Source of the DNA: an uncultured Bacteroidales bacterium
Lineage (GTDB): Bacteria; Bacteroidota; Bacteroidia; Bacteroidales; Bacteroidaceae
Assembly: GCA_945833885.1 (NCBI GenBank)
Contig: CAMAFY010000024.1
Coordinates: forward strand, 1-42,874
Length of the DNA: 42,874 nucleotides
Direction of reading: 5' to 3'
The notes under the pieces were generated by a model that did not search any database, was not told the DNA's origin, and worked only from the letters and a program-made list of their open reading frames with translations. Positions within the stretch are counted from its first letter, which is position 1. Every line of letters begins with the position of its first letter. A program made the translations under genes and the position numbers. Below, one piece after another: positions 3,520-41,033 of the stretch.

Positions 3520-3607
3520 CATGCCGCCGTTGCTCCCGTCGGACACGGCGTTCCACCCTTCATCCTGCCGCTTTCCGCCTGTGAGGAAACGGCAATGCAC
3601 GGCCCGT
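3520..3607. repeat. Weak 22-nt phased degenerate repeat, about 4 units
   Basis: Starting directly after the AraC stop codon, four consecutive 22-base blocks (3520, 3542, 3564, 3586) keep GCCG or CGGC near block positions 4-8, and three keep a C-rich segment near 11-16. Similarity is low and phase-fitting bias is possible. It is listed because the same spacing occurs clearly elsewhere in the window. Confidence 0.3.
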
Positions 3608-3744
3608 AGAACTGCAAGAAAAAGGCGTTGCGGTGGACATTCATTAAATCCGTCGCAAGCGATAGAGCAGGAAAATATCGCCACGGAAAGGACAAGAAGC
3701 GCATTCTTATGCCCCGGCATGCCGCAGATTAAGCCCGAAAGCAT

Positions 3745-3752
3745 TATCTTTG
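3745..3752 (+). promoter_or_regulatory. Probable -7 element TATCTTTG for the acyltransferase gene
   Basis: TATCTTTG fits TAnnTTTG and lies 110 bases before the ATG at 3862, which would give a leader of about 100 nt. No clear -33 TTTG is present. The gap 3520-3861 holds otherwise only the weak repeat at its left end. Confidence 0.45.
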
Positions 3753-3861
3753 CAGACGTTTTTTGCCGTGGTTCAACGAAGACGTCCCGGCAAACCGAAA
3801 CGAATTTCCAAAATACTGTTCCGCGGTGGTGCCCCGCAATCCGCACCGTCTCCCCAAACCC

Positions 3862-5076
3862 ATGAATCAGAACAACGTCTATTTAGAACCGAAACCACGG
3901 TATGAAATCCTCGACGGACTGCGTGGTGTGGCGGCCATGATGGTGGTTGCCTTCCATCTTTTCGAGACATATTCGGCCGGACCTGCCCATCAAATCCTCA
4001 ACCATGGTTACCTTGCCGTCGACTTTTTCTTTGTCCTTTCGGGCTTCGTCATCGGATATGCCTATGACGACCGTTGGGACAAAATGTCGGCATGGAACTT
4101 CTGTAAGCGCCGTCTTATCCGCCTTCATCCCATGGTTGTCTTCGGTTCTTTCCTCGGTTTGCTCCTGTATTATTTCGGCGATTGCCCAACATTTGCCATC
4201 ATCGGACAGACAGAATGGTACAAGCCCCTCATACTTTTCCTGATAGGATGCACGATGATTCCCGTCGGGGCAAGCATGGATATCCGCGGATGGTCCGAAA
4301 CTTATCCGCTCAATGGTCCGGCATGGTCGCTGATGTTGGAGTATGTCGGCAACATCCTTTACGCCCTTTTCATTCGCCGCTTGCCGAAGATTGCCCTTGC
4401 CATACTGGTTGTTCTCTTTGCCGGCATGACCATCATGCTGTGCCTGAACGTCGACCCTTTGGGCGTACTTGCCCCTCATCACTATGCCGCCTTTACGGTC
4501 ATCGGAGGCTGGGGCATTGATGCCTGCCAGTTGTGGGTGGGCTTCACCCGCCTGCTTTTCCCGTTCTTCTGCGGTCTGCTCCTCGCACGCTGCAGGAAAT
4601 TCATCCGCGTCAAAGGCGCGTTCTGGCTGTGTTCCCTCATCATGATTGCCGTGCTGGCCATGCCGCGACTGGGCGCCGACCCTGTGGCATTCACGGATTC
4701 GGGCGTTGTCTTCAACGTTGCCGAGGGCATGAAGAACGGCATCTACGAGGCCATCTGCATACTGATAGTCTTCCCGTTAGTGGTGATGATGGGTGCCGGC
4801 AGCAGCATCAAGGGCAAGAAATCCTTTGCCTTTTGCAAGTGGCTGGGCGACATTTCCTTCCCCCTTTACATCACTCACTTCCCCCTTGTCTACATGCAGA
4901 TAGCCTGGAAGGCGGCACACGAGGACGCACCTTTGGGCACTCACATCTCCGCAGGTCTGGGCATCTGGATCTGCGCCATCATGCTTGCCTACGCTTCCTT
5001 GAAACTTTATGACGAGCCGGTACGGGAATGGCTCAAAGACAAACTGTTTGTACGGGCACCGAAAAAACCGGAATAA
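3862..5076 (+). CDS. Acyltransferase 3 family integral membrane protein
   Basis: The product has 404 residues and about ten hydrophobic segments. The ATG at 3862 (MNQNN) is used rather than an in-frame upstream start at 3763 because homology-like sequence begins at RYEILDGLRG and the longer start would leave almost no leader after the TATCTTTG box. The N-terminal RYEILDGLRGVAAMMVVAFH contains the family R-x10-H arrangement (Arg21, His32), which is needed for acyl transfer in this family. Members O-acetylate or O-succinylate extracytoplasmic sugars such as O-antigen, exopolysaccharide or peptidoglycan. Nothing nearby fixes the acceptor. The gene appears monocistronic and is followed by a long hairpin at 5113. 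Confidence 0.9.
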   Translation: MNQNNVYLEPKPRYEILDGLRGVAAMMVVAFHLFETYSAGPAHQILNHGYLAVDFFFVLSGFVIGYAYDDRWDKMSAWNFCKRRLIRLHPMVVFGSFLGLLLYYFGDCPTFAIIGQTEWYKPLILFLIGCTMIPVGASMDIRGWSETYPLNGPAWSLMLEYVGNILYALFIRRLPKIALAILVVLFAGMTIMLCLNVDPLGVLAPHHYAAFTVIGGWGIDACQLWVGFTRLLFPFFCGLLLARCRKFIRVKGAFWLCSLIMIAVLAMPRLGADPVAFTDSGVVFNVAEGMKNGIYEAICILIVFPLVVMMGAGSSIKGKKSFAFCKWLGDISFPLYITHFPLVYMQIAWKAAHEDAPLGTHISAGLGIWICAIMLAYASLKLYDEPVREWLKDKLFVRAPKKPE

Positions 5077-5112
5077 GGACCGGGAACACCGGACTTACAG
5101 CACCTACGCAAC

Positions 5113-5180
5113 GTGGGATGGAAGGGATTGCCAGACGTTCTCCGACGCCGTCAGCAATCGTTTCCATCCCACTTTCTTTT
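5113..5180 (+). terminator. Long-stem terminator after the acyltransferase gene
   Basis: GTGGGATGGAA (5113-5123) pairs with TTCCATCCCAC (5162-5172). Inside it GATTGC (5126-5131) pairs with GCAATC (5154-5159), and a short GACG/CGTC stem closes the tip. The sequence TTTCTTTT follows at 5173. Position 36 bases after the stop codon and the T-rich tail support a rho-independent terminator. Confidence 0.8.
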
Positions 5181-5299
5181 CCATCCGCATGAGATGTATG
5201 GCGGATACCGACGCGGCATTCAATTTTTCCTTAAACGTTTGATTTACAAGTATTTGAAAATTCACAGAAAAACAACATCTCCCACCTTGCAAATCCGCT

Positions 5300-5550
5300 G
5301 AAAATGTGCGGCACTTTCACTTGAAAAGTTCGGAACTTTCGGGTGGAAAGTGCCGCACTTTCGCATCGGAAATGCGGATGTTTTGAAGAGAGCGTTCCGA
5401 GGGATGGTTTCGGGACGCCGGAAAGGGCGGCATCAAACCGTCGAGGGGCTTCACGAACGTTCCCGGAAACACGGCCGCCGCGCGCCGGAAACCGGCACGG
5501 AAATGACGGAGGCATCTGTAAATCGCCACCACGGAAACGCTGAACTTCAC
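5300..5550. repeat. 22/23-nt phased degenerate repeat array with palindromic core
   Basis: Four clear units start at 5300, 5323, 5346 and 5368 (spacing 23, 23, 22). Each begins GAAA or GGAAA, carries a TGCGG- or TGCCG-like centre and most end ACTTTC; the third contains the perfect inverted repeat GAAAGTGC-C-GCACTTTC. The array continues less clearly as CGGAAA/CGAGG-type boxes at 5398, 5419, 5441, 5464, 5486, 5507 and 5532. The core is shared with the arrays at 16119-16206 and 27591-27678. Confidence 0.7.
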
Positions 5551-5857
5551 CCTTCGTCTTCGCGCCATGGCATCACACAAACCATTTCGAACCGCTTGCA
5601 TACCGCACATCTGGCTTGACGGAAACAGCGCTTTTTCGCGGACTTCGATTCCGCGTACCGGCGCTGAAATTCCTGCCTTCTTATGATGTTCCCTTATCCA
5701 ACCTCAACTGTTTTCTGTAAAAAGCATCCGAATTAAAAGCGGATTCGCGGTGACAAATCAACAGAATCGCTTGCCTTCCGAAAGATTTTTCGCGGGGAAA
5801 GACACGAAAATGCGCTGAAATAGGGCGGATTTCAAGAATGAACCGAAAAGAAATGCT
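5551..5857. other. Intergenic stretch with no recognised feature
   Basis: Between the repeat array and the promoter of the GH92 gene I see no credible ORF, RNA gene or strong hairpin. Short open frames here lack coding character. Confidence 0.5.
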
Positions 5858-5865
5858 TATATTTG
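5858..5865 (+). promoter_or_regulatory. Probable -7 element TATATTTG for the mannan locus
   Basis: TATATTTG matches TAnnTTTG exactly and predicts transcription starting near 5872. This falls after an in-frame upstream ATG at 5838 and before the ATG at 5928, and so decides the start of the GH92 gene. The -33 region is not clear. Confidence 0.55.
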
Positions 5866-5927
5866 CCACTGACTTGAACCCTTGTGCGCATGGCAAAGCA
5901 TCGTGCGCCAAACATTCAACATCATCT

Positions 5928-8948: not shown

Positions 8949-9058
8949 CACCGGATCACAAGATAATCTCCACCGGATTACAAGACAATTCCGCTGATTT
9001 GTAAAGGTCTTCACGATGACTTATAAAGGACGTCACGATGTTTTTCAAGGCAATTCTG
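8949..9058. repeat. 22-nt tandem degenerate repeat, 5 units
   Basis: Five units of exactly 22 bases start at 8949, 8971, 8993, 9015 and 9037, the first base following the GH92 stop codon. Units 1 and 2 both begin CACCGGAT and share ACAAGA. Units 3 to 5 begin GCTGA, GATGA and GATGT and share a TAAAGG or CAAGG centre; units 3 and 4 end TCAC. It lies between two genes probably in one operon. Confidence 0.7.
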
Positions 9059-13638: not shown

Positions 13639-13697
13639 TTCCACGAAATTACACCCAATCTTCCACGAATTACCACCAATCATCCACAAAACCTGTC
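13639..13697. repeat. Short 22-nt phased repeat, about 3 units
   Basis: TTCCACGAA occurs at 13639 and 13661 (22 apart), and the related ATCCACAAA follows at 13682 (21 apart). The units fill the gap between the GH125 stop and the next ATG. Confidence 0.5.
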
Positions 13698-15866: not shown

Positions 15867-16206
15867 GGAGGTGGTAAACGGGAAACATGGAGGCAGGGAA
15901 GCCTGTGCACAGGCGTAATATAAGGAAAATATTGAGGATGGAAATGCGGACACGAAGGTCGGAGAATGCGGACACAGAGAATGGAAAATACAGACACGGA
16001 GGCTGTAAACGAATATCACGGAGACTGTAAACGGTTATCACAGAGGCCGGAAACGGGGAAAACCGAGATTGGGAGAAGCGAATGCGGAGGCCGGAAAAGC
16101 CACCTCGGAGAAGGGCGTGAGAAAGTGCCGCACTTCGCATCGGAAAGTGCCGCACTTCATCATCGGAAATTCCGTACTTTCCATCGCAAAATGCGGCACT
16201 TTTTCG
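15867..16206. repeat. 22-nt tandem degenerate repeat array, 12 or more units
   Basis: Seven consecutive units of exactly 22 bases start at 15961, 15983, 16005, 16027, 16049, 16071 and 16093. Most begin G(G/T)AAA and have GGAG, GAGG or CGAG near their end. After a 4-base slip the array continues with units at 16119, 16142, 16165 and 16186 (23, 23, 21 nt) whose core is AAAGTGCCGCACTT, close to the array at 5300. To the left, GGAG boxes at 15867 and 15889 are in step, with less regular sequence between. The palindrome GCCTGTGCACAGGC lies at 15901-15914. Confidence 0.8.
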
Positions 16207-16732: not shown

Positions 16733-18058
16733 ATGAGAAAAACATTGACAGCATTGATGCTGATGACCGGAAGTTTTTCGGTTTTGTCGGCTCAGGAAAC
16801 ACTGACCCTCGACGATTGTCTGCGCATAGGTCTGGAAAACAACCTGAACCTCAAGAGCAGTCGCAACGAAATCGCCAAAGGTAAGCACGGCATCAGCGAG
16901 AACCGTGCGAAACTGTTGCCGCAAATCAACGGCGTGGTTGGCTTCAACGACAACTTCGAACCTCCGGTGTCCGTCACCGACGGTTCGGCCTACGGCAACA
17001 AATACAACGTGACGAAGACCCTGCAATACAACGCTTCGGCAGGCTTTCAACTGCAAATGCCGCTCTATAACCAGATGCTTCTGACGGCAATGGACATAGC
17101 CCGTACCGTCGATGAACTGAACACACTGTCCTATGAAAAGGCACGCGAGGACCTGATGGTCCAAATCTGCAAGATGTATTATCTGGCACAGAACACAGCG
17201 GAACAGATACGCCTGGTGGAAGACAACATCAAACGCCTCGAGGAACTCCGCGACATCACCACGGCATTCTACGACAATGGCATGGTAATGGAGGTGGATG
17301 TGAAGCGCGTAAACCTGAACATCGAGAACCTGAGTGTGCAACGCGACAATGCGAACTCCATGCTCGAGCAGCAGTATAATATGCTGAAATACATCATCGA
17401 TTACCCTGTCGACGCGCAAATCTCCCTCACTCCCGTCAATCCGGGTCAGACCTCCGAAATCCAACTTACGGGACTCAGCACCGACCTTTACGAATTTCAA
17501 CTGCTGGAAAAGCAGCAGACGCTGGCTGAGCAACAGAAGAAACTCGTGCGCGACGGCTATCTTCCATCACTGAATCTTACGGCAAACTGGATGTTCACCG
17601 CCTATACCGACAAGGCAAGGAATTGGTTCAAGTCGGGGCCGTCGAGCCATTGGTACCGCTCCGATGGCGTAGGTCTTACCCTGAGGGTCCCCATTTTCGA
17701 CGGACTTGAAAAGCGTTCGAAGACGAGAAAGGCGCAGATCGACATCGAGAATGCGAACATCGCCTACGAGAATGCCATGAAAAGCATGACGACACAGTAC
17801 ATCAACGCCACCAATGACCTGAACAACAGCCTGCGGAACTACACCAAACAGTACGACAACTACCGCCTGGCTGAGGACGTATACAGCGTCACCGCCGACC
17901 AGTACCGCGAGGGTGTGGCATCGATGACCGATGTCCTGCAGGACGAGATGCGGATGAGCGAGGCACAAAACAACTATCTTACCGCACACTACAACCTGCA
18001 AGTGGCACAACTGACGCTGCTGAAACTTTCAGGACAACTTGACACCCTTACCAAATAA
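16733..18058 (+). CDS. TolC-family outer membrane efflux protein
   Basis: An outer-membrane factor of 441 residues with a signal peptide (ending SVLSAQ). It starts with the family-typical ETLTLDDCLRIGLENNLNLK, has two long coiled-coil-rich repeats, and ends GVASMTDVLQDEMRMSEAQNNYLTAHYNLQVAQLTLLKLSG, a usual OEP domain ending. Length agrees with TolC homologues. It is the first gene of an operon with an HlyD-type adaptor (77-base gap) and an MFS exporter, together forming an EmrAB-TolC-like pump spanning both membranes. Substrate is unknown. No TetR or MarR gene accompanies it; the AraC gene at 21964 is separated by a terminator. Confidence 0.92.
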   Translation: MRKTLTALMLMTGSFSVLSAQETLTLDDCLRIGLENNLNLKSSRNEIAKGKHGISENRAKLLPQINGVVGFNDNFEPPVSVTDGSAYGNKYNVTKTLQYNASAGFQLQMPLYNQMLLTAMDIARTVDELNTLSYEKAREDLMVQICKMYYLAQNTAEQIRLVEDNIKRLEELRDITTAFYDNGMVMEVDVKRVNLNIENLSVQRDNANSMLEQQYNMLKYIIDYPVDAQISLTPVNPGQTSEIQLTGLSTDLYEFQLLEKQQTLAEQQKKLVRDGYLPSLNLTANWMFTAYTDKARNWFKSGPSSHWYRSDGVGLTLRVPIFDGLEKRSKTRKAQIDIENANIAYENAMKSMTTQYINATNDLNNSLRNYTKQYDNYRLAEDVYSVTADQYREGVASMTDVLQDEMRMSEAQNNYLTAHYNLQVAQLTLLKLSGQLDTLTK

Positions 18059-21110: not shown

Positions 21111-21220
21111 GGCAAGGATTTCGCAAGAAACAGCAAGGTCTTCTGCAAGGAAGAATGGGGATTCCGCAAGAAACAACAAGGTCTTCTGCAAGGAAAGACC
21201 TGCATTTCCTGCCTGAAAGC
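21111..21220. repeat. 22-nt phased repeat, 4 to 5 units, right after the efflux operon
   Basis: GCAAG boxes recur at 21123, 21145, 21166 and 21188 (22, 21, 22). They lie within alternating units containing TTTCGCAAGAAA or TTCCGCAAGAAA and GGTCTTCTGCAAGGAA, so a dimer of about 43 bases is repeated twice. A fifth, decayed unit follows. The array starts 12 bases after the MFS stop codon. Confidence 0.65.
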
Positions 21221-21496: not shown

Positions 21497-21504
21497 TAAA
21501 TTTG
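21497..21504 (+). promoter_or_regulatory. Probable -7 element TAAATTTG for the second AraC gene
   Basis: TAAATTTG matches the consensus and follows a terminator. No TTTG stands at the ideal -33 distance. If used, it gives a leader of about 450 nt that includes the whole 22-nt array at 21618-21882. Confidence 0.5.
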
Positions 21505-21617
21505 CACAAAGAAAACTCCACGTTTTCGTTGAACCAAATGGGCAGGACGACAACAGATGAAACCGGATTCCGTTGCTCCCTAACGGGAAAACAAAGGACA
21601 AGCCCCAACGCTTTTTC

Positions 21618-21882
21618 CAATATTTCCGGCATATCATACTGCAATTCCCGGTTATAATCATTGAGAATTCAGGATATTCCCGCCGTAATTCCCGGTTATT
21701 ATCATCGATGATTCCGGATATTCCCACCGTAATTCCCGGCTATTATCGTCGATGATTCCGGATATTCCCACCATAATTCCTGTTTATTATCATTGTAACT
21801 TGCGGTTATTTCCCCTGCACATTCCGGCATACAACACCTTGTTTTCCGGCTATCCTCACCGGACATTTCCACATTTTTCACC
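21618..21882. repeat. 22-nt tandem degenerate repeat array, 12 units
   Basis: After a 23-base first unit (21618), eleven units of exactly 22 bases start at 21641 and every 22 bases to 21861. Most have ATTCC or TTCC with CGG near position 5-11, followed by TAT(T), and an ending like CATC or CACC. Units starting at 21685 and 21729 are nearly alike, and those at 21707 and 21751 are identical, so a 44-base dimer was duplicated. Similarity decays toward the right. The array lies between a probable promoter and an AraC gene. Confidence 0.88.
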
Positions 21883-22869: not shown

Positions 22870-22885
22870 ACCATCATCCACAACA

Positions 22886-22931
22886 AAGGGCGTTGCAGAA
22901 CACACAGAAATGTGCATTCCGCAACGCCCTT
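22886..22931. terminator. Bidirectional hairpin between convergent AraC gene and ftsW
   Basis: AAGGGCGTTGC (22886-22896) pairs perfectly with GCAACGCCCTT (22921-22931), and an inner CACA/TGTG stem closes the loop. It lies 17 bases after the AraC stop. T-runs are weak on both sides. Confidence 0.65.
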
Positions 22932-22959
22932 CTTCGGCTCGATGTGCGGGGATTTCAGC

Positions 22960-23158
22960 GGCAAACACCGAAAAAACGTGACGGCAAACGTTGGAAAACG
23001 TATCGTCAAACGTTGGAAAAAGTGACGCCAAACGCTGGAAAACGTGACGCCAAACGCTGGAAAACGTGACGCCAAACGCTGGAAAACGTATCGTCAAACG
23101 CTGGAAAAAGTGACGCCAAACGCTGGAAAATGTGACGTCGCCTCTTGTGGAAAAGGCT
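22960..23158. repeat. 22-nt tandem repeat array, 8 well-conserved units plus one decayed
   Basis: After a 23-base first unit at 22960, units of exactly 22 bases start at 22983, 23005, 23027, 23049, 23071, 23093 and 23115. All contain CAAACG(C/T)TGGAAAA followed by (A/C/T)GT and then GAC or ATC. Units at 23027 and 23049 are identical. A degraded ninth unit (TTGTGGAAAA) reaches 23158, inside the stop codon of ftsW. This is the least diverged and so probably the youngest array in the window. Because 22 is not a multiple of 3, it keeps several minus-strand frames open without encoding a real protein. Confidence 0.95.
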
Positions 23159-24398
23159 AATTCTTTTGGAAGTCATCACGAACTTCCGCGCTGACTTCGC
23201 GGGCAACGTTCGGCAATGTCTTCTTGCCATTGCTGCGTGCGTAGCGGCTGACTGAGAGCATCATACCGAAATAGCCCGCAGTGATGATGGTGGAAGTTCC
23301 GCCGCGCGACACCATGGGAAGCGTCTGTCCGGTGACGGGGAACAGACCTACCGCCACCATCATGTTGAGCAAGGCCTGCACCATCAGCAAGGTGGCGAGG
23401 CCCAAGATGAGGAAGGCCGGGAAGTTACTGTCGCACCGGCTGGCTATTCGTCCCGCCCTTATGAACAAAGTGATGTAGAGAAGGAGCACAATTATACAGC
23501 CCGCTATGCCCAATTCCTCGGCAATGATGGCGAAAATGAAGTCGGAAAACGACTGCGGAAGGAAGTCCCTCTGCACGGAATTTCCCGGCATCAAACCCTT
23601 CAACCCCGCATTCGCCACGGCGATTCGTGCGTGGACTTTCTGCCGGTTCTCATCGGTTACGACGAAAGAGTCCGCAGGAACACTCGTGTCCATGTTGTCG
23701 TCCGCCACACGATGATGCCATGTTGAGAAGCGTTCCGTCACCTTTGTCTGATAAAAAGGATGGTGACTGTCGTCGGGAAGACTGAGGAGAGTGAAATAGG
23801 CTGCGGCACAAAAAATGGCGATACCGACAACAAAGGGGTAGAACTGCCGTCCGGGAATGCGGCCAAGCCACATCATGAGGACGATGACACCGAAAATCAT
23901 CACCGCCGTGGACAGGTTTTGCGTAAAGATAAGCCCGCAAACGATGCAGGTGGCCACAAGGATTGTGGTGATGGCATTCTGGTCTGCGCCATCCTTTCGT
24001 TGCGAAGAACTGAGGACAAGCGACACAAAAGCGATAAGGGCTCCTTTGGACAATTCGCTCGGTTGGAAGGTGAATCCCAGGAAAGGAACCTGCAACCACC
24101 GTGCTCCACCATTGATGTCGACACCCTTAAACAGCACCCATATCAGCAGAATCACCGTGAGGGGATAGCCCGCGACGCCGACCAACTTGAAATAACGGCA
24201 CGGAATATGGTGGACAAAGACCGCAACAATGGTGGCAAAAACAAGCATTCCCGCCTGCTTGATAAAGGCAGAAAGGAAGTGGCTTTCGCCGTAAACCAAC
24301 TGACTTCCTGCGCTGAACACCTCGATAAGACTGATGCCTGAGAGCAGAAAGAAGATGGTCCAGATAACAAGGTCGCCCTTTAATACCGACTGTTTCAT
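23157..24398 (-). CDS. ftsW: FtsW, SEDS-family peptidoglycan glycosyltransferase of the divisome
   Basis: A polytopic protein of 413 residues with about ten membrane segments. SEDS landmarks are SGISLIEVFSAGSQLVYG at the first segments and GLFPVTGQTLPMVSRGGTSTIITAGYFGMML at the C-terminal end. FtsW polymerises lipid II at the septum with FtsI. It is the last gene of the minus-strand cluster, 33 bases after murD. In other Bacteroidota murG, murC, ftsQ, ftsA and ftsZ usually follow, but here the cluster stops and a convergent AraC gene begins. The C-terminal tail after the last membrane segment is short and polar, and its stop codon lies in the edge of the 22-nt repeat array. Confidence 0.93.
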   Translation of the reverse strand: MKQSVLKGDLVIWTIFFLLSGISLIEVFSAGSQLVYGESHFLSAFIKQAGMLVFATIVAVFVHHIPCRYFKLVGVAGYPLTVILLIWVLFKGVDINGGARWLQVPFLGFTFQPSELSKGALIAFVSLVLSSSQRKDGADQNAITTILVATCIVCGLIFTQNLSTAVMIFGVIVLMMWLGRIPGRQFYPFVVGIAIFCAAAYFTLLSLPDDSHHPFYQTKVTERFSTWHHRVADDNMDTSVPADSFVVTDENRQKVHARIAVANAGLKGLMPGNSVQRDFLPQSFSDFIFAIIAEELGIAGCIIVLLLYITLFIRAGRIASRCDSNFPAFLILGLATLLMVQALLNMMVAVGLFPVTGQTLPMVSRGGTSTIITAGYFGMMLSVSRYARSNGKKTLPNVAREVSAEVRDDFQKN

Positions 24399-27103: not shown

Positions 27104-27215
27104 ACAAGGAATTTCGGATGTTTCCGATGGCTTCTACCGACCTACCACCGGGAAAGTTCAAAGGGGAAATTGGTTTTTAGCGAAAAAAAGCAAGTATAAA
27201 TACCTGCCTTCTAAA

Positions 27216-27781
27216 ATGGGTTCATTGGGGAAACGGGGGTGTTTACCCGGGGATGCCGGAGGTTGGCGCCGGAGAATGGCGCGACACTCCTGGGAAAAAG
27301 TGGGGCGATGCTTCGGAACAAGATGTGGTTTCCTCGGGAAAGAGGGGGTGGCTCTTTCGGGGGAGGACGAGGGGATCACGCCAAATTCCGGGGATGGACT
27401 TCTGAACAACGAGGGGGAAAAACCTGGAGAAAAGGATAGGGAAACGGACGTGCTGAACGCAATGTGCGGAGGTTCAATGCGCAATGTCGCGAAGTCTTTC
27501 ATCAGACATCCGGAGGTTGCTGATGGAATGTCCGGAGGTTACTGATGATAATTGCGGACGCTACTGATAAAACGTGCGGAAAATGCTGATGGAAAGTTCC
27601 GATGTTTCCGGCAAAAAGTTCCGATGTTTCTGACGGAAAGTGCGGAACTTTCAAGTGTAAAATGCGGCACTTCCGGACGCGGAATGCGGCGCTTTCTACG
27701 TCGGGGTTCCGTGGCTTCCAGTCCCTTTCCCGAAGTTTTTCCCCGTGTTCTCAAAGTTTTCGGCTCCGTAAGGCGATGCCC
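27216..27781. repeat. Very long 22-nt degenerate tandem array (about 26 units) between murE and mraY
   Basis: Blocks of 22 bases can be laid end to end from 27216 to the murE stop, with one 23-base unit at 27480. In the first part (27216-27391) most blocks carry a TTC or TCC box near 5-9 followed by CGGGAA, CGGAA or GGGGA near 11-16. From 27458 blocks carry TGTCCGGAGGTT or TGCGGAGGTT, and four successive units (from 27503) end CTGAT. From 27591 the boxes are AAAGTTCCGATGTTT and then AAAGTGCGGAACTTTC and AAAATGCGGCACTT. The final blocks (27701-27766) keep only the period and a T-rich right half. The consensus therefore drifts stepwise along one array. Early blocks are the least certain. Confidence 0.88.
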
Positions 27782-29345: not shown

Positions 29346-29521
29346 TTGGGTTGTTTTGCGGGATATGTTCTGCCATTTTGTGCCGGATGTTGGGGGCTGC
29401 CCCGCATTCGGTCCGTGACTCTGGCACGGAATGCTCCGGCCCTTATGGCAAAATCCTCAGTACATTGTGCTTGATTCCTCCGCACGATGTGGAAACGTCC
29501 TCGGAACGTTATGGATGCGGC
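29346..29521. repeat. 22-nt phased array between ftsI and murE, running into the ftsI 3' end
   Basis: Eight blocks of exactly 22 bases start at 29346 and every 22 bases up to 29500. Blocks at 29434, 29456, 29478 and 29500 all begin CTC; those at 29434 and 29500 share TTATGG at block positions 10-15. Earlier blocks share CATTTTGTGCCGG-like or CTCTGGCACGG-like centres. The ftsI stop codon is at 29509, so the last block is partly coding. Confidence 0.65.
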
Positions 29522-31836
29522 TTCGCGGAATCCTGCTTTTTCACGACGGCAGCCGTCGGCTTCTGTTCCGCAGGCTTTGCCTCATCCTCAGGCTTCTTTG
29601 CCACGGTTTTGGGCTGTGTCTTCACCTTTTTCTCCAATCCCGTGGCAAGGACGAGGGCGACGGTCTGCCCGCGATGTATGGCAGTTCCCGGCGCGATGCT
29701 CTGCTGTTTCACCGCACCGCTGCCCTGCACCTTCACCTTCAGGCCGAGGAGTTCGAGGCGATATACCGCATCGCGGAGTCCGTAGCCCTTGACGTCGGGC
29801 ATCCGTTCCTTGGAGGTCCTGTCGGTGCGGAGTTGGGGTTGCGCGGTGATGTCCGCCGCATTGCCACCCCATTCCAGGGTGTTCCCGGAGATTTGTCCGG
29901 AATAATCGATGCTCAATTCGTTGAGGACGTGTTCCGTTGCTTGGAGGTTTCCGCCCTTGATGCGTGGCGCCGCCGTCCGATATGCCGTGGTATCGCACGC
30001 CTGTTTGAGGTCTGCCCTGACATTTCGCGCCCAAATGGTCTCGGCAACGCGCTTGAATACGGGGGCACATGCGGAACCTCCATAGAGTCCGGGCCCTTCA
30101 ATGCAGACAATCATGCTGTAAAGCGGCTTGTCGGCAGGGAAGTATCCGACGAAAGTCACAAAGCGCGAGCCCGTATTTCCCGCTTTACTCCACACCTGGG
30201 CCGTACCCGTCTTGCCGGCAATGCGGAACTTTTTCGTGTAAGCGTCCTTACCCGTACCCTTATTCTTCTGCACTACGCGCCCAAGACACGTCTGGATTTG
30301 CCGCAATGTTGAGGGCGAACACATCATGTGGTCCTTGCGGTTCGGGTGGACATAAGCAACAGGAAAGGTCTTCACCACCTCGTTCCCGCGACGCAATTCC
30401 GTGACGAATCGGGGCTTTAACATCACACCTCCGTTGGCGATTCCATTGTAGAACGCAAGGGTCTGTATGGGCGAAATCTGGGTCTCGTATCCGATACTCA
30501 TCCACGGTAATGCCGTAGCCGACCAGTTGGTCCATTGTCCCCGCTCGTTCACCTTCGGCAATCTGATGTTCGGTTTCTTGTAAAGCGAGATGGGAACCTC
30601 AAGGTCCGCCTTGATGCCTGTGCGGTAAAGCGCATTGACAAATTCCTCGGGATGATCGTGATAATGGCGGTCAATGAGCAGGGAAGTTCCGACGTTCGAG
30701 GAATGTTCTATGACCTCCGCCACGTTGATGAGCGAAGGAAATATCTGGTGAGAGTCGGACATTCGCGCACGACCGAAGTAACATTCGCCCCGACCTACGT
30801 CAATCGTACTGTTGATGTCCAGTTTTCCGTCCTCGATTGCCGCCATGAACGAGACGGTTTTGAACACGGAACCGGGACTGTGATACGACGTAATGGCACG
30901 GTTCTCGTACTCATTGTAGCCCGTTCCAAAGGGGTTCGACATCGAAGCGATGGCTTTCACGTCGCCCGTCTTCACCTCCATGAGGATGCAAAGTCCGATT
31001 TCCTTTTGGAGTTCCTCCATACGTTCCCGCAGGGCAGAGGCGACAATGTCCTGCATTCCTACGTCGATTGTGGTCACAACATCGCAACCATTGATGGCGT
31101 TTGTATCGACAAGGTTGAGGTATTTATCCTGTATTTTCTGCCGGCGACCCATGCCATCGCGACCGCTAAGTTCGGTATTGAAGTGTTCCTCAAGCCCTTG
31201 CATCTTATGGTCAGCGTTGTCCGGATTGTAGTATCCTATGGTACTTGTCGCCAGATTTCCAAAAGGTTTCTTACGCTTTGGTTCGGGGGGCGCATGAACA
31301 CCTGTGAGGGAAAAGGGCTCGCGGAAGAAGGGAAGTTCCAGCAAAGTGCAGTATTCCAGATAGGTGATGCGCCGTGGTGTTACACGGAAGTGCTTTTCCT
31401 GGCTGTACCTTCCTGTGAGGATTCTCTCCTTAAACTCCGCAGGCGTCACCTCGGGGAACAAAGTATGGAGGCCGTTACACATGCTGTCGAGTTTGAGAAA
31501 CAGAATCCTGTCGCGCCTCAACTGGTACTTTTGCGTAAGATATTCCGTCTTTTCCTTGACGGTAAAGTCGATGTATACATGGTATTCCGGCAATGTTGTT
31601 GCCAGCACCTGCCCATCGGCGGATATGATGTTTCCGCGTTTTGCATACAAAGGGACGCCACTTTTCTTGAAGCGTTTGCTGACATCGAGCCAGTATTGCT
31701 GCTGCTCTCCGTGCATCATCATGAAGGTTTTACCTATAATTGCCGCGCCAACGACAATGAAAATGCCCGTCAGGATGAGGTAACGTATCTTGATTGCTTC
31801 ATAATTAAAGCGCAGGTATTTCTTTTTACTTGCCAT
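29509..31836 (-). CDS. ftsI: FtsI / PBP3-type division transpeptidase with one PASTA domain
   Basis: A class B penicillin-binding protein of 775 residues that crosslinks septal peptidoglycan with FtsW. The ATG at 31836 (MASKKK) is used; an in-frame TTG 21 bases upstream is less likely. One membrane anchor lies at about 18-40. The transpeptidase motifs are SVFK (Ser323), SSN (379-381) and KTGT (542-545). One PASTA domain follows at about 685-735 (MPDVKGYGLRDAVYRLELLG). The last 45 residues are a Lys/Pro/Ala-rich low-complexity tail. Sporulation-type or Spo5D PBPs also carry PASTA, but the position between ftsL and murE fixes this as FtsI. The 3' end lies inside a 22-nt repeat array. Confidence 0.94.
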   Translation of the reverse strand: MASKKKYLRFNYEAIKIRYLILTGIFIVVGAAIIGKTFMMMHGEQQQYWLDVSKRFKKSGVPLYAKRGNIISADGQVLATTLPEYHVYIDFTVKEKTEYLTQKYQLRRDRILFLKLDSMCNGLHTLFPEVTPAEFKERILTGRYSQEKHFRVTPRRITYLEYCTLLELPFFREPFSLTGVHAPPEPKRKKPFGNLATSTIGYYNPDNADHKMQGLEEHFNTELSGRDGMGRRQKIQDKYLNLVDTNAINGCDVVTTIDVGMQDIVASALRERMEELQKEIGLCILMEVKTGDVKAIASMSNPFGTGYNEYENRAITSYHSPGSVFKTVSFMAAIEDGKLDINSTIDVGRGECYFGRARMSDSHQIFPSLINVAEVIEHSSNVGTSLLIDRHYHDHPEEFVNALYRTGIKADLEVPISLYKKPNIRLPKVNERGQWTNWSATALPWMSIGYETQISPIQTLAFYNGIANGGVMLKPRFVTELRRGNEVVKTFPVAYVHPNRKDHMMCSPSTLRQIQTCLGRVVQKNKGTGKDAYTKKFRIAGKTGTAQVWSKAGNTGSRFVTFVGYFPADKPLYSMIVCIEGPGLYGGSACAPVFKRVAETIWARNVRADLKQACDTTAYRTAAPRIKGGNLQATEHVLNELSIDYSGQISGNTLEWGGNAADITAQPQLRTDRTSKERMPDVKGYGLRDAVYRLELLGLKVKVQGSGAVKQQSIAPGTAIHRGQTVALVLATGLEKKVKTQPKTVAKKPEDEAKPAEQKPTAAVVKKQDSAKPHP

Positions 31837-31939: not shown

Positions 31940-32578
31940 TCACTCCGCAACTTTCAGCGAATACGCCTGTTCCGTGGGAATATGTATGGTGGTGTCGCGC
32001 AACAATCCCTCAATATGGGTGCTCAACGTCATTTCCTTCACCTTACTTTCTACGGACAAAGCCTTGTATTGCCGGTCAATCAGCATCTTGTTGTACCGGT
32101 CATTCTCCATCCGGGCCTCCTCCATCATGTAACGTAATGACGTGTTCACAAGGGAGAAGACAACGATGACGAGGATCAGCATCAGATTCCGCCTGACGAT
32201 TCCCAGGAGGCTGTCGCCTCCGAAGATGGCCTGCACGGAGAAGTTCAGGGGGATATCCTCGTCGCTGTTGACGTAATCGTTGAGCATCTGCGCAAAGGAT
32301 TTCTTCTTTCCGTCCGCAGTCTCCTCATCACCATTTCCGTAGTCGTCGCCCTCTTCATCGGTTGTTCCGGCGGCCGTGTCCGATGTTTTTGAGGCTGTGT
32401 CCGATGTTTGGTCGGCCTTTTTCGCCGCTTTTCCGCCGCTTTTCCGCAGTTTTCCGTCCGTTTCGGCGCTCTCTGTTCCGCCAACCTCCGCAGCCGGGGT
32501 GGCTTCCGCGCCATCAAGGCCTACGGATTCCGCAACATTTTCGGCGGCGTCTATGATGTTCTTTTCGTTTTCTTCCAT
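31940..32578 (-). CDS. ftsL: FtsL-like divisome protein with a long acidic N-terminal extension
   Basis: The product has 212 residues and lies where ftsL is expected, between rsmH and ftsI. The ATG at 32578 (MEENEKN) is preferred to an in-frame TTG at 32614, which would overlap rsmH. A disordered, charged region (about 1-100, rich in Ala, Glu, Asp, Lys and Thr) is followed by SFAQMLNDYVNSDEDIPLNFSVQAIFGGD. One membrane segment (LMLILVIVVFSLVNTSLRYM) and a short coiled-coil-like periplasmic tail follow. E. coli FtsL is about 120 residues, so the extension is long; some lengthening is usual in Bacteroidota. The call depends mainly on position and topology, since FtsL sequences are poorly conserved. 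The extension DNA carries 21/22-nt repeats. Confidence 0.78.
   Translation of the reverse strand: MEENEKNIIDAAENVAESVGLDGAEATPAAEVGGTESAETDGKLRKSGGKAAKKADQTSDTASKTSDTAAGTTDEEGDDYGNGDEETADGKKKSFAQMLNDYVNSDEDIPLNFSVQAIFGGDSLLGIVRRNLMLILVIVVFSLVNTSLRYMMEEARMENDRYNKMLIDRQYKALSVESKVKEMTLSTHIEGLLRDTTIHIPTEQAYSLKVAE
32379..32485. repeat. 21/22-nt and 11-nt phased repeats inside the ftsL coding region
   Basis: GTCCGATGTTT occurs at 32379 and 32400 (21 apart). Next come three boxes of 11-nt period, TTTTTCGCCGC, TTTTCCGCCGC and TTTTCCGCAGT (32418-32450), then the looser TTTCCGTCCG and TTTCGGCGCT. The stretch encodes part of the disordered acidic/basic extension of FtsL (region KLRKSGGKAAKKADQTSDT). 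Two 11-nt steps equal the 22-nt period of the intergenic arrays. Confidence 0.5.
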
Positions 32579-33672: not shown

Positions 33673-33892
33673 CAATGCTTTCCGCCACGGACCTCCGTCC
33701 CCGTCTTCCGCTCCGCGGCATTCCGCCCTCCGGACGCCGGATTCCGCCATGTCCTTCCCCGGAAGTCCGCCTCGGGACACCGGCTTCCGGACACCGCATC
33801 CCCGGTGTTTCCCGCCGCATTCCACGGCTCCCGGAAGGGCATTTTCCGCGGTTCCGCAACCCCCGTTTCCGACCTTCGGACGGACAGGCATG
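33673..33892. repeat. 22-nt phased degenerate repeat in the gpmI leader, about 10 blocks
   Basis: Blocks of 22 bases from 33673 mostly keep TTCCGCC, TTCCGG or TCCCGCC within a few bases of the same block position and a C-rich right half. The positions drift by one or two bases, so decay or bias is possible. The sequence is extremely pyrimidine/G-rich and lies downstream of the likely transcription start. Confidence 0.5.
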
Positions 33893-35584: not shown

Positions 35585-35619
35585 GTTGCCTGGTCCGCAA
35601 AAGACCGGGCAACTTTTTT
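35585..35619 (+). terminator. Rho-independent terminator of gpmI
   Basis: GTTGCCTGGTC (35585-35595) pairs along its full length with GACCGGGCAAC (35603-35613; one G-T pair), and six T follow. It lies 94 bases after the stop codon. Confidence 0.92.
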
Positions 35620-35630
35620 GTGTCCTCACA

Positions 35631-35784
35631 AAAAGATGCGGAGGTTCATCACGGAAAGCACGGAGGTTTTCGATGAGAAACGCGGAACTTTCAACGATAA
35701 ACATCGGAGGTTCTTAGCCAAAAGCACGGAGGTTTACAATGGAAAATACAGCGTTTTCCACGATGAATCCGTCGTTTTTTGTCG
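35631..35784. repeat. 22-nt tandem degenerate repeat, 7 units
   Basis: Units of exactly 22 bases start at 35631, 35653, 35675, 35697, 35719, 35741 and 35763. The first five carry AAA with CGGAGGTT or CGGAACTTT at the same position; the last two have decayed (ACAGCGTTTTCC, CCGTCGTTTTTT). The array begins 11 bases after the T-run of the gpmI terminator, so it is outside the gpmI message. Confidence 0.85.
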
Positions 35785-36138
35785 TTTTCCATCATATCAT
35801 AAGGACTATTCAAGAAAGATTTTCCGCCTTTTGACAGGATTCTTCAGGCAGACATCTTGAAAAAAAACACTGAAATCCACGATGAAACCGTTGGAAATGG
35901 CAGGGAATCCACGTAAGGAACAACACCATACGTTGCCATAATCCATACAGGTCCGTCCAAAGAAACGGTCACCACAAGGCAAATTCCCCCTTGAAACCGG
36001 CAAATATGCGGCACTTCGCACCGCCGATTCCTGCCGAGGGAAGGCGGATTGGCGGAATCTCCAGCCCCCCTTTTCCGGCATCGTCCGCCACAGCGGCAAA
36101 GGAAAATCACACGCGGATTGCAAAAAACATCCGTTTTT
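35785..36138. other. Intergenic stretch with no recognised gene
   Basis: No credible ORF or RNA gene. A segment near 36004 (ATATGCGGCACTTCGCACC) resembles units of the 5300 and 16119 arrays but is not tandemly repeated here. Confidence 0.45.
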
Positions 36139-36172
36139 CTTGCGGCTTTCTCTAACGAATTGCGTAAATTTG
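36139..36172 (+). promoter_or_regulatory. Promoter of the metallophosphoesterase gene
   Basis: TAAATTTG (36165-36172) is a full -7 match, with CTTG at 36139-36142 as a possible -33 box, 22 bases apart. Transcription would start about 20 bases before the ATG at 36198. Confidence 0.6.
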
Positions 36173-36197
36173 CCGAAAAATTCACCCTTACCTTACC

Positions 36198-37691: not shown

Positions 37692-37750
37692 CACCACGGC
37701 ATTCCGTGCCGAAAACCTGCCGCCCCACACCCGTGAAGCGCCGCACTCCG

Positions 37751-37790
37751 ACACCCGGTCCTCCATCCCTCGCGACGGAGAACCGGGTGT
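37751..37790 (+). terminator. Hairpin after the metallophosphoesterase gene
   Basis: ACACCCGGT (37751-37759) pairs with ACCGGGTGT (37782-37790), extended inward by CTCC/GGAG with one mismatch. Only TT follows, so it is a weak or rho-assisted terminator. Confidence 0.6.
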
Positions 37791-37905
37791 TTGCCGTAAA
37801 ACAGAGCCGACGAAACACCCCCTTCGCAGAAACAAAAAACGCCGTTCTGCGGACGGATTGTTTACTTTTACACCTATATTATAGCGATTTTCCCGTGAAA
37901 AACAC

Positions 37906-37913
37906 TAAATTTG
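37906..37913 (+). promoter_or_regulatory. Probable -7 element TAAATTTG for the acyl-CoA synthetase gene
   Basis: TAAATTTG is an exact consensus match 56 bases before the ATG at 37969, with T-rich sequence (GATTTT) about 20 bases upstream. It probably also serves prfB, which starts 8 bases after the synthetase stop. Confidence 0.58.
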
Positions 37914-37968
37914 TCGGCATAACCAACCGGACACCCCAATACGGAATGCCCATTTCATCCTCAATACC

Positions 37969-39780
37969 ATGAAAATCAACCCACACCTTGCCCACCTCAT
38001 CCACGAGTCGGCAAAAATCTATGGCGACCGTACCGCACTGAAATATAAGGATTATGACAGCGGAAAATGGCTTGATGTCAGTTGGAAACAGTTCGACAAC
38101 AACGTCCGGAGAACAAGCCTTGCCATGCTGGGAATCGGCATCAAGGCACAGGAAAACATTGCAGTCTTCTCCCAGAACAAGCCCGAATTCCTATACGCGG
38201 AGTTCGCAACGATGGGCATACGTGCCGTCACCATACCCTTTTATGCCACCACAAGCGCGGCACAGGTCACATATATGGTCAACGATGCACAGATACGCCT
38301 CATCTTCGTTGGCGAACAACAGCAGTACGACACCGTGTTTTCGGTTCTCGCACTCTGCCACTCCCTGGAGCATATCGTCATCTTTGACCGAAAGGTGAAA
38401 CGCGCGGAGAACGACCATCTGTCGGTGTATTTCAACGATTTCATCAAACAAGGCGCGGGAAACGACGCACTGATAGCGGAATTTCACCGGCGCCAGAACG
38501 ACGCCAACAACGAGGATACGGCAAACATCCTCTACACTTCCGGCACGACAGGCGTGTCAAAGGGCGTGATCATCACGCATTCGCAGTACCATCATGCCCT
38601 GGCGGCACACCACAAGACCCTCGACCTCGGGGATAAAGACCTGGTCATGAACTTCCTTCCCTACACACATGTATTCGAAGGAGCCTGGACAAAACTCAGC
38701 ATTACCTGCGGTGCCACGCTGGCCGTGAACGAACGTCCGCAGGACATCCTCCAATCCTTGCAGGAAGTCCGCCCCACTTGTATGTGCTCCGTGCCGCGCT
38801 TTTGGGAGAAAGTGTACCATGCCGTACTCGAAAAGGCGGAGAAAAGCAGCCCCATCCAGCGCAAACTCATTCTCGATGCCTTGAAGACCGGCGGGGAATA
38901 TTGGGAGAAATACAAGTCGAAAGGCGTTCCCGCACCCATCGGACTGCGGTTGAAGCATGAGATGTATGAGCGCACCATCGTCAAACTCCTCCGCAAAACG
39001 CTGGGCTTCGACCGGCCGAACTTCTTCCCGGTTGCGGGAGCCGCGGTGATGCCGAACATCGAACGCTTCGGACATGCCGCAGGATTCAACCTCGTTGTGG
39101 GGTACGGACTCACCGAAACATGCGCTTCCGTGTCGTTCGACCGCGCCGGCGAACGCGTATCGCTCGGCTCCATCGGACGCCCGTTGCCGGGAGTAGAGGT
39201 GAAAATCAGCGAGGAAGGCGAGATTCTCGTCAAAGGTCCCACCGTCACACCGGGGTACTACAACAAGGCTTTCGAGACACAAGCATCCTTCACCGCCGAC
39301 GGTTGGTTCAAGACAGGTGACGCAGGTTACATCAAAAACGGCGAACTCTACATCACCGAACGTATCAAGGATCTCTTCAAAACATCCAACGGGAAATACA
39401 TCGCGCCCCAACTCATCGAGGGTAAACTCACCATAGACCGCCACTTCGAGCAGGCAGTAATCGTTGCCGACCAGCGGAAGTTTGTCTCTGCACTCATCGT
39501 CCCCAACTTCGCCGCACTCGAGGAATGGGCTGCCGAACAGGGCATCAACGGACTCTCGCGAGAGGAACTTTGCCGCGACAAGCGCGTCAACCTGTTCATC
39601 AAAGAGCGCATCGACACCCTGCAACAGGACCTTGCCAACTACGAACGCATCAAAAGATTCACACTCCTGCCACGACCATTCAGTATGGAAAATGGCGAAC
39701 TTACCAATACGCTGAAAATAAAACGCCGCGTCGTTTATGCGAACTTTGCCGCCATTATCGATGCGATGTACTCTGACTAA
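37969..39780 (+). CDS. Long-chain fatty acid--CoA ligase (AMP-forming)
   Basis: An adenylate-forming enzyme of 603 residues that activates fatty acids to acyl-CoA with ATP. Family motifs: the P-loop YTSGTTGVSKGVIITHSQ (from about residue 189), NFLPYTHVFEGAWT, VPRFWEKVYHAVLEKA typical of the long-chain (FAA1/FadD15-like) branch, VGYGLTETCASVSF, GWFKTGDAGYIKNGELYITERIKDLFKTSNGKYIAPQ and the C-terminal lysine region NTLKIKRRVV. No signal peptide. It directly precedes prfB (8-base gap), an arrangement without obvious functional meaning. Exact chain length is not readable from sequence. Confidence 0.94.
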   Translation: MKINPHLAHLIHESAKIYGDRTALKYKDYDSGKWLDVSWKQFDNNVRRTSLAMLGIGIKAQENIAVFSQNKPEFLYAEFATMGIRAVTIPFYATTSAAQVTYMVNDAQIRLIFVGEQQQYDTVFSVLALCHSLEHIVIFDRKVKRAENDHLSVYFNDFIKQGAGNDALIAEFHRRQNDANNEDTANILYTSGTTGVSKGVIITHSQYHHALAAHHKTLDLGDKDLVMNFLPYTHVFEGAWTKLSITCGATLAVNERPQDILQSLQEVRPTCMCSVPRFWEKVYHAVLEKAEKSSPIQRKLILDALKTGGEYWEKYKSKGVPAPIGLRLKHEMYERTIVKLLRKTLGFDRPNFFPVAGAAVMPNIERFGHAAGFNLVVGYGLTETCASVSFDRAGERVSLGSIGRPLPGVEVKISEEGEILVKGPTVTPGYYNKAFETQASFTADGWFKTGDAGYIKNGELYITERIKDLFKTSNGKYIAPQLIEGKLTIDRHFEQAVIVADQRKFVSALIVPNFAALEEWAAEQGINGLSREELCRDKRVNLFIKERIDTLQQDLANYERIKRFTLLPRPFSMENGELTNTLKIKRRVVYANFAAIIDAMYSD

Positions 39781-39788
39781 TTCAACAA

Positions 39789-40910
39789 ATGATTACACAA
39801 GAACAATACAAAGGACTCCAAGAACGCGTAGCACAGTTGCACCGCTACCTCGATATCGACGCGAAAATCATGCAGCATGAGGAGGAACAAATCCGCACTC
39901 AGGACCCCGAATTCTGGAATGACCGCGAACGTGCCGAGGAACAAATGAAACTCGTCAAAGGACTTGAGAAGTGGATTAACGGATACAACGAGGTCTGCAC
40001 ACTGACCGAAGAGGTGGAACTCTCCCTGGAATTCTACCGGAATGAGATGGTCAGCGAGGAGGAAGTTGACGAAAGTTATGCCAAAGCACTCGACGCTATC
40101 GAGGCCCTGGAACTGAAAAACATGCTCCGCGAAGAGGAGGATTCCATGGCATGTGTGCTGAAAATCAACTCCGGAGCCGGAGGAACCGAGGCACAGGATT
40201 GGGCACAAATGCTCATGCGCATGTATCTCCGCTATGCCGAACAGCACGGCTACAAGACCACAATCGCCAACCTTATCGACGGCGACGAGGCTGGAATCAA
40301 GACCGTCACTATGGAGATTGAGGGCGATATGGCCTATGGTTACCTGAAAAGTGAGAACGGTGTGCACCGTCTTGTCCGCGTAAGCCCCTACAATGCTCAG
40401 GGAAAACGCATGACATCCTTTGCCAGCGTCTTCGTAACTCCCCTTGTTGACGACACCATAGAGGTGTATGTCGACCCCGCACGCATCAGTTGGGACACCT
40501 TCAGGTCCAGCGGTGCGGGAGGACAAAATGTGAACAAAGTGGAGACGGGTGTCCGCCTTCGCTACCAATATGTCGACCCTGAGACCGGCGAAGAAGAGGA
40601 AATCCTCATCGAAAACACCGAAAGCCGTAAGCAACTTCAGAACAGAGAGAATGCCATGCGTCTGCTCCGTTCGAACCTTTATGACCGGGAAATGAAGCGA
40701 AGACAGGCGGCTCAGGCCAAGATAGAGGCGGGGAAAAAGAAGATTGAATGGGGCTCGCAGATCCGATCCTACGTCTTCGACGACCGCCGTGTCAAGGATC
40801 ACCGCACGAACTTCCAGACTTCCGACGTCGGAGGTGTGATGGACGGAAAAATTGACGGGTTCATCAAGGCCTATCTTATGGAGTTCGCCGGAACGGAAAA
40901 CGAAGGTTAA
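39789..40910 (+). CDS. prfB: Peptide chain release factor 2, without the autoregulatory frameshift
   Basis: A translation terminator of 373 residues that recognises UGA and UAA. The catalytic SSGAGGQNVNKVETG loop has GGQ at 244-246. The codon-recognition tripeptide, SPF in E. coli RF2, reads SPY (199-201) within VSPYNAQGKRMTSFASVFV. The later WGSQIRSYVFDDRRVKDHRT is the usual RF2 ending. In many bacteria prfB has an in-frame UGA with a +1 frameshift at about codon 25. Here the equivalent site (HRYL-DIDAK) reads CTC GAT (codons 21-22), so translation is uninterrupted. The gene follows the acyl-CoA synthetase closely. Confidence 0.95.
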   Translation: MITQEQYKGLQERVAQLHRYLDIDAKIMQHEEEQIRTQDPEFWNDRERAEEQMKLVKGLEKWINGYNEVCTLTEEVELSLEFYRNEMVSEEEVDESYAKALDAIEALELKNMLREEEDSMACVLKINSGAGGTEAQDWAQMLMRMYLRYAEQHGYKTTIANLIDGDEAGIKTVTMEIEGDMAYGYLKSENGVHRLVRVSPYNAQGKRMTSFASVFVTPLVDDTIEVYVDPARISWDTFRSSGAGGQNVNKVETGVRLRYQYVDPETGEEEEILIENTESRKQLQNRENAMRLLRSNLYDREMKRRQAAQAKIEAGKKKIEWGSQIRSYVFDDRRVKDHRTNFQTSDVGGVMDGKIDGFIKAYLMEFAGTENEG

Positions 40911-40923
40911 GACCTCAACCTGC

Positions 40924-41033
40924 CGGAAATCCCATAACACCCCGTCGGATAATCCACAACATTTTGCCGAGAAGTCCTCAACGCCTCGCCGGGAATACAC
41001 CCCGAAACGACGCAGTTCCAGCCAAAGGCTTGC
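40924..41033. repeat. 22-nt tandem degenerate repeat, 4 clear units plus one decayed
   Basis: Units of exactly 22 bases start at 40924, 40946, 40968 and 40990. Each begins CGG or CGAG, has AATCC, AGTCC or ATACA near the middle, and a C-rich ACACCCC- or CAACGCC-like right half. A fifth, decayed block runs to 41033. It starts 14 bases after the prfB stop codon. Confidence 0.65.

Follow-up and report, generated by a model that had tools for sequence, protein, structure and literature searches.

In an uncultured Bacteroidales bacterium, a large part of the intergenic DNA consists of short arrays that advance in steps of 22 bp, and the wording of the repeated unit varies with place and with species. 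We analysed a window of 42,874 nucleotides, the entire contig C24 of the draft genome G000 (3.11 Mb, 89 contigs, 87% complete), together with a smaller (442,874 bp) and a main (1,237,048 bp, 40% of the genome) sample of the same genome and a comparison set of 58 genomes of the genus, one per species. Intergenic and coding DNA were separated with a simple codon-usage gene caller written for this analysis, not with a published tool. The explanation that we favour, at about even odds (0.5), has two linked layers: phased arrays of a short dyad would be held under a spacing constraint, and the 22-bp register would outlive the sequence through in-register misalignment.

Within the window, intergenic bases were identical at frequencies of 0.338, 0.340 and 0.326 at lags 22, 44 and 66, against a mean of 0.261 at other lags. 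In the smaller sample, lag-22 identity was 0.313 in intergenic and 0.248 in coding DNA, and 30 dinucleotide shuffles gave a mean of 0.257 (s.d. 0.0014; largest value 0.2596). The main sample yielded an intergenic value of 0.312 over a background of 0.257, with further peaks at 44, 66 and 88; no comparable lag-22 peak was found in its coding DNA. A previous sequence-only reading of the window had claimed a shared 22-nt step between genes, to be recognized by a lag-22 peak with harmonics at 44 and 66 above shuffled controls, and this is what the autocorrelation returned.

The period is sharp. Counts of self-matching segments in the main sample came to 208 arrays at lag 22, 27 at lag 21, 20 at lag 23 and 7 at lag 20, with 0–5 at each of 12 other lags. 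Tandem Repeats Finder (TRF), whose rows overlap such that one array may appear in two of them, reported 199 intergenic rows of period 22, 47 of 44, 27 of 21, 12 of 66, 10 of 23, 7 of 43 and 6 of 88, at most three at any other period of at least 14, and zero rows of period 22 in coding DNA. Period 21 was overrepresented in coding DNA (17 rows in G000, 23 in congeners); this surplus may reflect protein heptads and was left unused. Lag-22 similarity exceeded all 39 shuffles in 301 of 561 gaps of at least 120 bp. An Escherichia coli K-12 control (100 kb, 14,314 intergenic bases) was flat at lag 22 (z = −1.5), and none of 200 G000 subsets matched to it in size fell below z = 3.9. Agreement in the A/T class was slightly elevated near lags 10–11; however, lag-22 identity was also raised in the G/C class (0.529 versus about 0.502 at lags 23–24), so the residual signal is more than A/T phasing, and helical phasing of about 11 bp is ruled out as the sole cause.

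When the twelve sites listed in the sequence-only reading were each compared with 500 dinucleotide shuffles, ten reached p ≤ 0.004 at lag 22. The site at 27216 gave p = 0.016, the clear array in that gap being the one at 27509–27694, and the site at 33673 was not significant (p = 0.064). The step was not exactly 22 throughout: the site at 21111 scored slightly better at lag 21, and the one at 13639 about equally at 21 and 22.

The notion that the sites share nothing except their step length had to be given up. Clustering of the 185 arrays with a score of at least 14 placed 89 in a single dispersed family, split into communities of 47 and 42; another 33 fell into seven small groups and 63 stood alone. 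Different sequence at each site is thus an apt description only outside the family, where arrays share the period and not the sequence. The family unit comprises a 15-bp dyad, AAASNNCSGNNSTTT, with the skeleton AAA...C.G...TTT and two inverted half-sites, and a variable 7-nt spacer. G000 carries 528 copies of AAASNNCSGNNSTTT and 17 of the reversed control pattern; in the G000 sample, 243 copies were intergenic and 6 coding, and eight variant patterns had 0–12 intergenic copies. Of a narrower form, GAAAGTNCCGNACTTT, G000 has 67 copies, G014 has one and the other 56 genomes of the genus have none. The AAASNNCSGNNSTTT skeleton elsewhere in the genus numbers 0–19 copies, mostly fewer than the control, although some copies in G003 look like a related family, with one pair 21 bp apart. 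We rejected a viral origin: at least 120 stretches with GAAAGTNCCGNACTTT occur in viral contigs, and the 80 listed have one match each, which we take as chance.

Dyad spacing is nearly invariant over short distances. Of the 205 exact dyad pairs separated by up to 110 bp, 204 fall on multiples of 22 (100 at 22, 61 at 44, 35 at 66, 7 at 88 and 1 at 110), the exception being one pair at 67. If the partner may differ at one base, exact multiples still account for 454 of 459 pairs within 75 bp, and if it may differ at two, for 566 of 591. Between arrays, column agreement is 0.73–0.91 at the eight skeleton positions (AAA, C, G and TTT) and 0.26–0.39 in the spacer. Within arrays the units evolve in concert, with identities of 0.67 overall and 0.70 for adjacent units versus 0.55 between arrays, and the spacers of consecutive exact dyads share 0.60 of their bases (36 comparisons).

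Both sides of the dyad draw on one pool of half-sites (AAAGTGC, AAAGTTC, AAACATC, AAAGTAC, AAACCTC and others). Perfect dyads account for 8.2% of 318 units versus 13.4% expected (P = 0.0025 if units are independent), and pairing falls below expectation at two of the three variable position pairs. This lack of preference for perfect dyads argues against hairpin conservation. An RNA hairpin was accordingly rejected as the principal explanation, the half-sites showing no pairing covariation and the window no Rfam match at gathering score. A consensus-level test for palindromes (p ≤ 0.05) gave a weak result, being passed by 9 of the 86 family and 1 of the 150 non-family rows, by 14 of 79 arrays from other genomes and by 0 of 77 coding arrays; a column test (z > 2) picked out 55 of the 116 clustered arrays and 5 of the other 69.

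The register also persists where the family is absent. Family-negative gaps (344 of 641) retain a lag-22 identity of 0.305 (z = 35), and intergenic DNA outside detected arrays still shows 0.280 versus 0.256. Family rows have TRF periods of 22 (84) or 23 (2; n = 86) and non-family rows periods of 20 (3), 21 (19), 22 (74) or 23 (4; n = 100), a difference in strictness that is significant (Fisher p = 2.4e-6), as is the preponderance of 21 over 23 (p = 0.0026). Among clean non-family intergenic rows with a period of at least 15, 41 of 49 are exact multiples of 22; clean duplications occur in units of 44, 66, 88 and 110 bp and also of 20, 21, 43 and 86 bp. The flanks of 26 clean rows decay gradually, with in-phase identities of about 0.39, 0.33, 0.30 and 0.26 as distance grows, versus 0.23–0.27 out of phase. 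At C5 76275 and C8 30367, non-family units sit in register within family arrays. Low-copy non-family arrays carry 3–7 extra matching bases at their end in 8 of 12 rows (a count that leaves out five rows with a matching run shorter than the period minus one and arrays longer than 2.4 run lengths, and includes one array twice), which is the residue expected from misalignment between short repeats.

These observations suggest two linked processes. In the first, a species-specific dispersed repeat, made of the 15-bp dyad and a free 7-nt spacer, would stand in tandem at exactly 22 bp, or about two helical turns, between genes, keeping its skeleton and spacing while the rest drifts. The arrangement of half-sites as dyads, their strict spacing and the preserved skeleton point to phased recognition and fit a dimeric DNA-binding factor on phased sites. 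Among the candidates raised by the sequence-only reading, a DNA-binding protein phased at close to two helical turns suits the dyad family best, with the factor itself putative. In the second process, loss of the dyads would leave 22-bp self-similarity behind, and replication slippage or unequal exchange would re-duplicate local sequence by one inherited period or a multiple of it, slippage being the presumed copying step. The sequence-free register, its multiples, the short terminal homologies and the decayed flanks together suggest such re-amplification by misalignment. The register would then outlast the sequence and drift slowly, to 21 more often than to 23, leaving intergenic DNA cryptically 22-periodic; non-family arrays would be descendants of older dyad arrays.

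Several results weigh against this two-layer explanation. Dyad spacings beyond 110 bp are multiples of 22 in only 7 of 16 cases. Spacing counts need intact dyads, such that units with indels inside the dyad go unseen, and one or more indels do appear in the TRF alignments of 36% of family rows (and 47% of non-family rows); the spacing constraint on family dyads is therefore well supported but not proven. At one of the three position pairs, half-site pairing slightly exceeds expectation (0.412 versus 0.376). Around some clean two-copy duplications of 21 or 22 bp, no periodicity is visible in the flanks. Two loci, C8:8061-8246 and C16:15247-15434, share related 88-bp tandem units in which no internal 22-bp period was found (0.16 and 0.18). 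Periods of 21–23 in other species could be explained by common descent of the repeat rather than by a helical constraint. Finally, the placement of arrays relative to genes, described below, fits neutral or selfish accumulation as well as it fits function.

An unlikely alternative is neutral satellite turnover, in which one ancestral 22-bp unit evolves without constraint and the dyad skeleton is simply its best-preserved part. Concerted evolution within arrays, higher-order units, the scarcity of arrays in divergent gaps and the presence of every degree of decay all agree with it. It does not readily explain why conservation between arrays is so uneven between skeleton and spacer, why the period is stricter in family than in non-family arrays or why other species have other dyads at a similar period.

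We consider a dedicated mutational ruler improbable. Here an enzyme, acting through staggered nicking and fill-in, as an integrase or by a polymerase jump, would duplicate about 22 bp of local intergenic sequence, which then decays; the sequence-only reading had preferred a process of this kind, copying in 22-nt steps. Its appeal lies in the sharp period of clean arrays outside the family (22 rows at 22, 4 at 21, 1 at 20 and none at 15–19 or 23–42) and in two- to three-copy cases within non-periodic flanks (C1 14741, C3 57186, C6 8499, L202 13541 and C3 100832). But clean duplications also come in units of several periods and of 43 and 86 bp, nearly all of those measured being self-similar near lag 22; the low-copy rows bear the extra terminal matches; in-phase similarity persists around clean arrays; and non-family periods spread over 20–23.

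More doubtful still is that the dyads are REP-like or MITE-like mobile palindromes (REP, repetitive extragenic palindrome; MITE, miniature inverted-repeat transposable element), moved by a transposase of the RAYT or another type, with tandem arrays as a by-product. The dyads are indeed dispersed, intergenic, palindromic, species-specific and high in copy number, and the 23-bp array of G053 lies within an inverted-repeat-bounded element of about 400 bp, as described for BrickBuilt (PMC4596501). However, the flanks of the 89 family arrays in G000 are mostly unshared (10 matches, which involve 9 of 163 flanks), members of the Y1 transposase family occur in 28 of 58 genus genomes and are missing from G003, G006 and G044, whose strongest lag is 21, and non-family arrays are left unexplained. 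G000 has one partial Y1 transposase match (C39:6593-6823), with the nearest AAAGT-type exact match, among those listed, at 17767. RAYT as the cause is unsupported, the Y1 transposase apparently not tracking the pattern across the genus; so is a larger mobile vehicle in G000, save for about seven arrays near dispersed elements. An assembly or binning artefact is very improbable: short-read assemblers work with small k-mers and G000 is a draft bin, but the units differ by many substitutions, the period is missing from coding DNA and the pattern recurs with different units in many genomes, including G003 (a single contig of 2.76 Mb) at lag 21.

Several relatives have their own dyads. Sampling 22 congeners at 20–299 kb each, we found the strongest intergenic lag in the range 13–200 to be 22 in four and 21 in nine (13 of 22), with the caveat that lag 21 is a multiple of three and its peaks can be inflated by unrecognized coding DNA. 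Congener TRF rows in intergenic DNA numbered 39 at period 21, 37 at 22, 6 at 23, 2 at 20 and 3 at 24. Dyad families were seen in G053 (GGTTANTAACC, spacings of 23 and 46 bp), G019 (GGAAGNNNNNCTTCC, 22 and 44 bp) and G045 (AARTGNNCAYTT, 22 and 44 bp), with further species dyads in small numbers in other congeners. Some are shared by a few species: AGGAAGNNNNNCTTCCT has 26 copies in G015, 13 in G019, 12 in G038, 4 in G040, 3 in G002 and 0–1 in the rest of the genus, and TTCTGCANNNNNTGCAGAA has 41 in G023, 27 in G017, one in each of two genomes and none in 54. For AGGAAG-5N-CTTCCT, a dyad whose central five bases vary, in G015, G019, G038 and G040 all 30 successive listed intervals below 100 bp are multiples of 22. 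In G056, the reversed control TTTSNNGSCNNSAAA outnumbered the actual pattern by 143 matches to 10, a hint that a mirrored kind of dyad family exists there; a 40-kb portion of that genome contained no TTTSNNGSCNNSAAA match.

A dispersed element with the ends TTCTATAAATTA and TAATTTATAGAA also came to light. Copies of about 190 bp and 94–99% identity occupy several G045 gaps (for example, L216 13130-13380), and in G053 (L207 8105-8534) the 23-bp dyad array lies inside an element of this type. The samples of G045 and G000 contain 22 and 11 copies of its end motif, respectively.

In 80 named Bacteroidales ftsW loci, a set that includes members of this genus, intergenic TRF periods of at least 18 were 22 (six), 21 (four), 44 (two) and one each of 20, 23, 28, 32, 42 and 48. 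The habit may therefore be wider than the genus. A more far-reaching reading, which we consider rather unlikely, is that phased dyad arrays form a class common to the genus and perhaps to the order: every lineage would have its own dyad at a spacing fixed near two helical turns, read by a putative fast-evolving DNA-binding factor that organizes or insulates intergenic DNA, and with the period inherited and the sequence turning over, much intergenic DNA would be old arrays.

Convergent gaps carry arrays most often (32 of 69), compared with 119 of 474 tandem and 14 of 70 divergent gaps, and the distance from array to gene is not fixed. This distribution makes a regulatory role at promoters unlikely; neutral accumulation is possible. 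Array-bearing gaps can be long, as between murE and mraY in the window (Table 1), yet other gaps of the dcw cell-wall cluster are not uniformly longer in G000 than in congeners. The gap between ftsI and murE measures 369 bp in G053 and 2513 bp in G019 (L231), the latter compared with −4 to 369 bp in 19 other congeners.

The nearest described system comes from the same bacterial order. The BrickBuilt MITE of Porphyromonas gingivalis forms intergenic arrays of imperfect 23-nt tandem units, strain-variable in number, at 19 sites with one consensus and a conserved leader and tail; 22- and 41-nt repeats of strain W83 are mentioned as well (PMC4596501). The G053 element is very similar to it and looks like one of this type, whereas no leader, tail and inverted-repeat element of this kind was found in G000, which has hundreds of arrays, mostly with unique flanks and about half of unrelated sequence. 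REP, BIME and REPIN sequences (PMC3116915, PMC3733652) are likewise short extragenic palindromes, high in copy number, lineage-specific and sometimes tandem; REPs measure 20–40 bp, bear GTAG or CGTC tags and form hairpins (PMC3733652). Unlike these, the G000 repeat is a 15-bp imperfect dyad on a strict 22-bp lattice, surrounded by a sequence-free register and with no clearly matching transposase pattern; the deficit of perfect dyads indicates no hairpin kept by pairing, and the consensus AAASNNCSGNNSTTT has neither tag, although no systematic tag search was made.

The arrays have tandem units in the 10–100-bp range of minisatellites and variable-number tandem repeats (VNTRs), which they also resemble in intergenic location, slippage-type higher-order units and concerted evolution. 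VNTR loci of one genome ordinarily differ widely in unit length, whereas nearly all G000 intergenic arrays of period at least 15 share one. Plasmid iterons and partition-site arrays are likewise tandem binding sites of a sequence-specific dimer, spaced close to two helical turns apart, but at one or a few replicon loci, and the G000 dyads are chromosome-wide. Eukaryotic satellite arrays share a period and homogenize internally, and their families are replaced between species; the G000 arrays differ in being short, of few units, between genes and bacterial. CRISPR-like organization (repeats of 24–48 bp with unique spacers of similar size) was not found, the dyads having 15 bp and the 7-nt spacers being partly alike within arrays; cas genes were not searched for. 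Literature searches, from whose coverage most subscription papers fall outside, returned no description of this pattern. We regard the G000 arrays as a variant of the palindromic tandem repeats found between genes, unusual in that their register does not depend on sequence.

In bacteria, the DNA between genes is generally viewed as short and mainly regulatory; in G000, more than half of the longer gaps are shaped by one repeat length. As a small and testable system, this genome can serve to study how a period is inherited beyond the repeat sequence, and it bears on whether bacteria use phased site arrays at chromosome scale. A ready comparative series exists in the relatives, whose dyads differ and whose periods are 21, 22 or 23.

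The window carries part of the dcw cluster (rsmH, ftsI, murE, mraY, murD and ftsW), and its arrays are given in Table 1.

Table 1. Periodic arrays and related features of the window (p values from the per-site shuffles)
Position	Feature	Strand	Remarks
5289..5375	Main dyad family array, 22 bp	.	Family-scored row 5296-5377; dyads 5325-5339 and 5347-5361; p = 0.002 at lag 22
8949..9040	Non-family 22-bp array	.	Clear core 8995-9040; p = 0.002
13639..13691	Non-family array, TRF period 21	.	p = 0.004 at lag 22, 0.006 at lag 21
15943..16067	Non-family 22-bp array	.	Site 15867, p = 0.002
16121..16201	22-bp array scoring as main dyad family	.	Shares a gap with 15943..16067
21113..21181	Non-family array, TRF period 21	.	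p = 0.002 at lag 21, 0.004 at lag 22
21643..21793	Higher-order array, 44-bp unit (87% match) above a weaker 22-bp period	.	Site 21618, p = 0.004
22973..23137	Strongest array of the window, non-family	.	7.5 x 22 bp, 88% match; gap between AraC-family gene and ftsW
27104..27781	murE-mraY gap, contains 27509..27694	.	678 bp versus 3-158 bp in 20 congeners
27509..27694	22-bp array, non-family units passing into family dyads in register	.	Dyads at 27593, 27615 and 27637; part 27586-27641 scores as dyad family
29421..29541	Weak 22-bp periodic stretch, murE/ftsI gap	.	Site 29346, p = 0.002
35655..35735	Two identical dyads, spacing 66 bp (3 x 22)	.	Starts 35655 and 35721; site 35631, p = 0.004
40906..41006	Weak 22-bp periodic stretch, starting inside the 3' end of prfB and extending into the gap	.	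Site 40924, p = 0.002

For the strongest array, no close copies were found elsewhere in the genome save one match with three mismatches. Around it (22870-24398), ftsW is followed by the array and then by an AraC-family gene on the opposite strand, and the dcw cluster therefore seems to break there. Adjoining rsmH, an 11-bp array (CTTTTCCGCCG) occupies 32415-32470 within a called open frame. A piece at about 21500-21570 resembles, as judged by eye, the 88-bp tandem units of C8 and C16. Both ends of the window recur elsewhere: 129 bases near the right end (within 42629-42874) reappear on C5 at 91% identity, and bases 1-112 at three other places in the genome at 94–97% identity.

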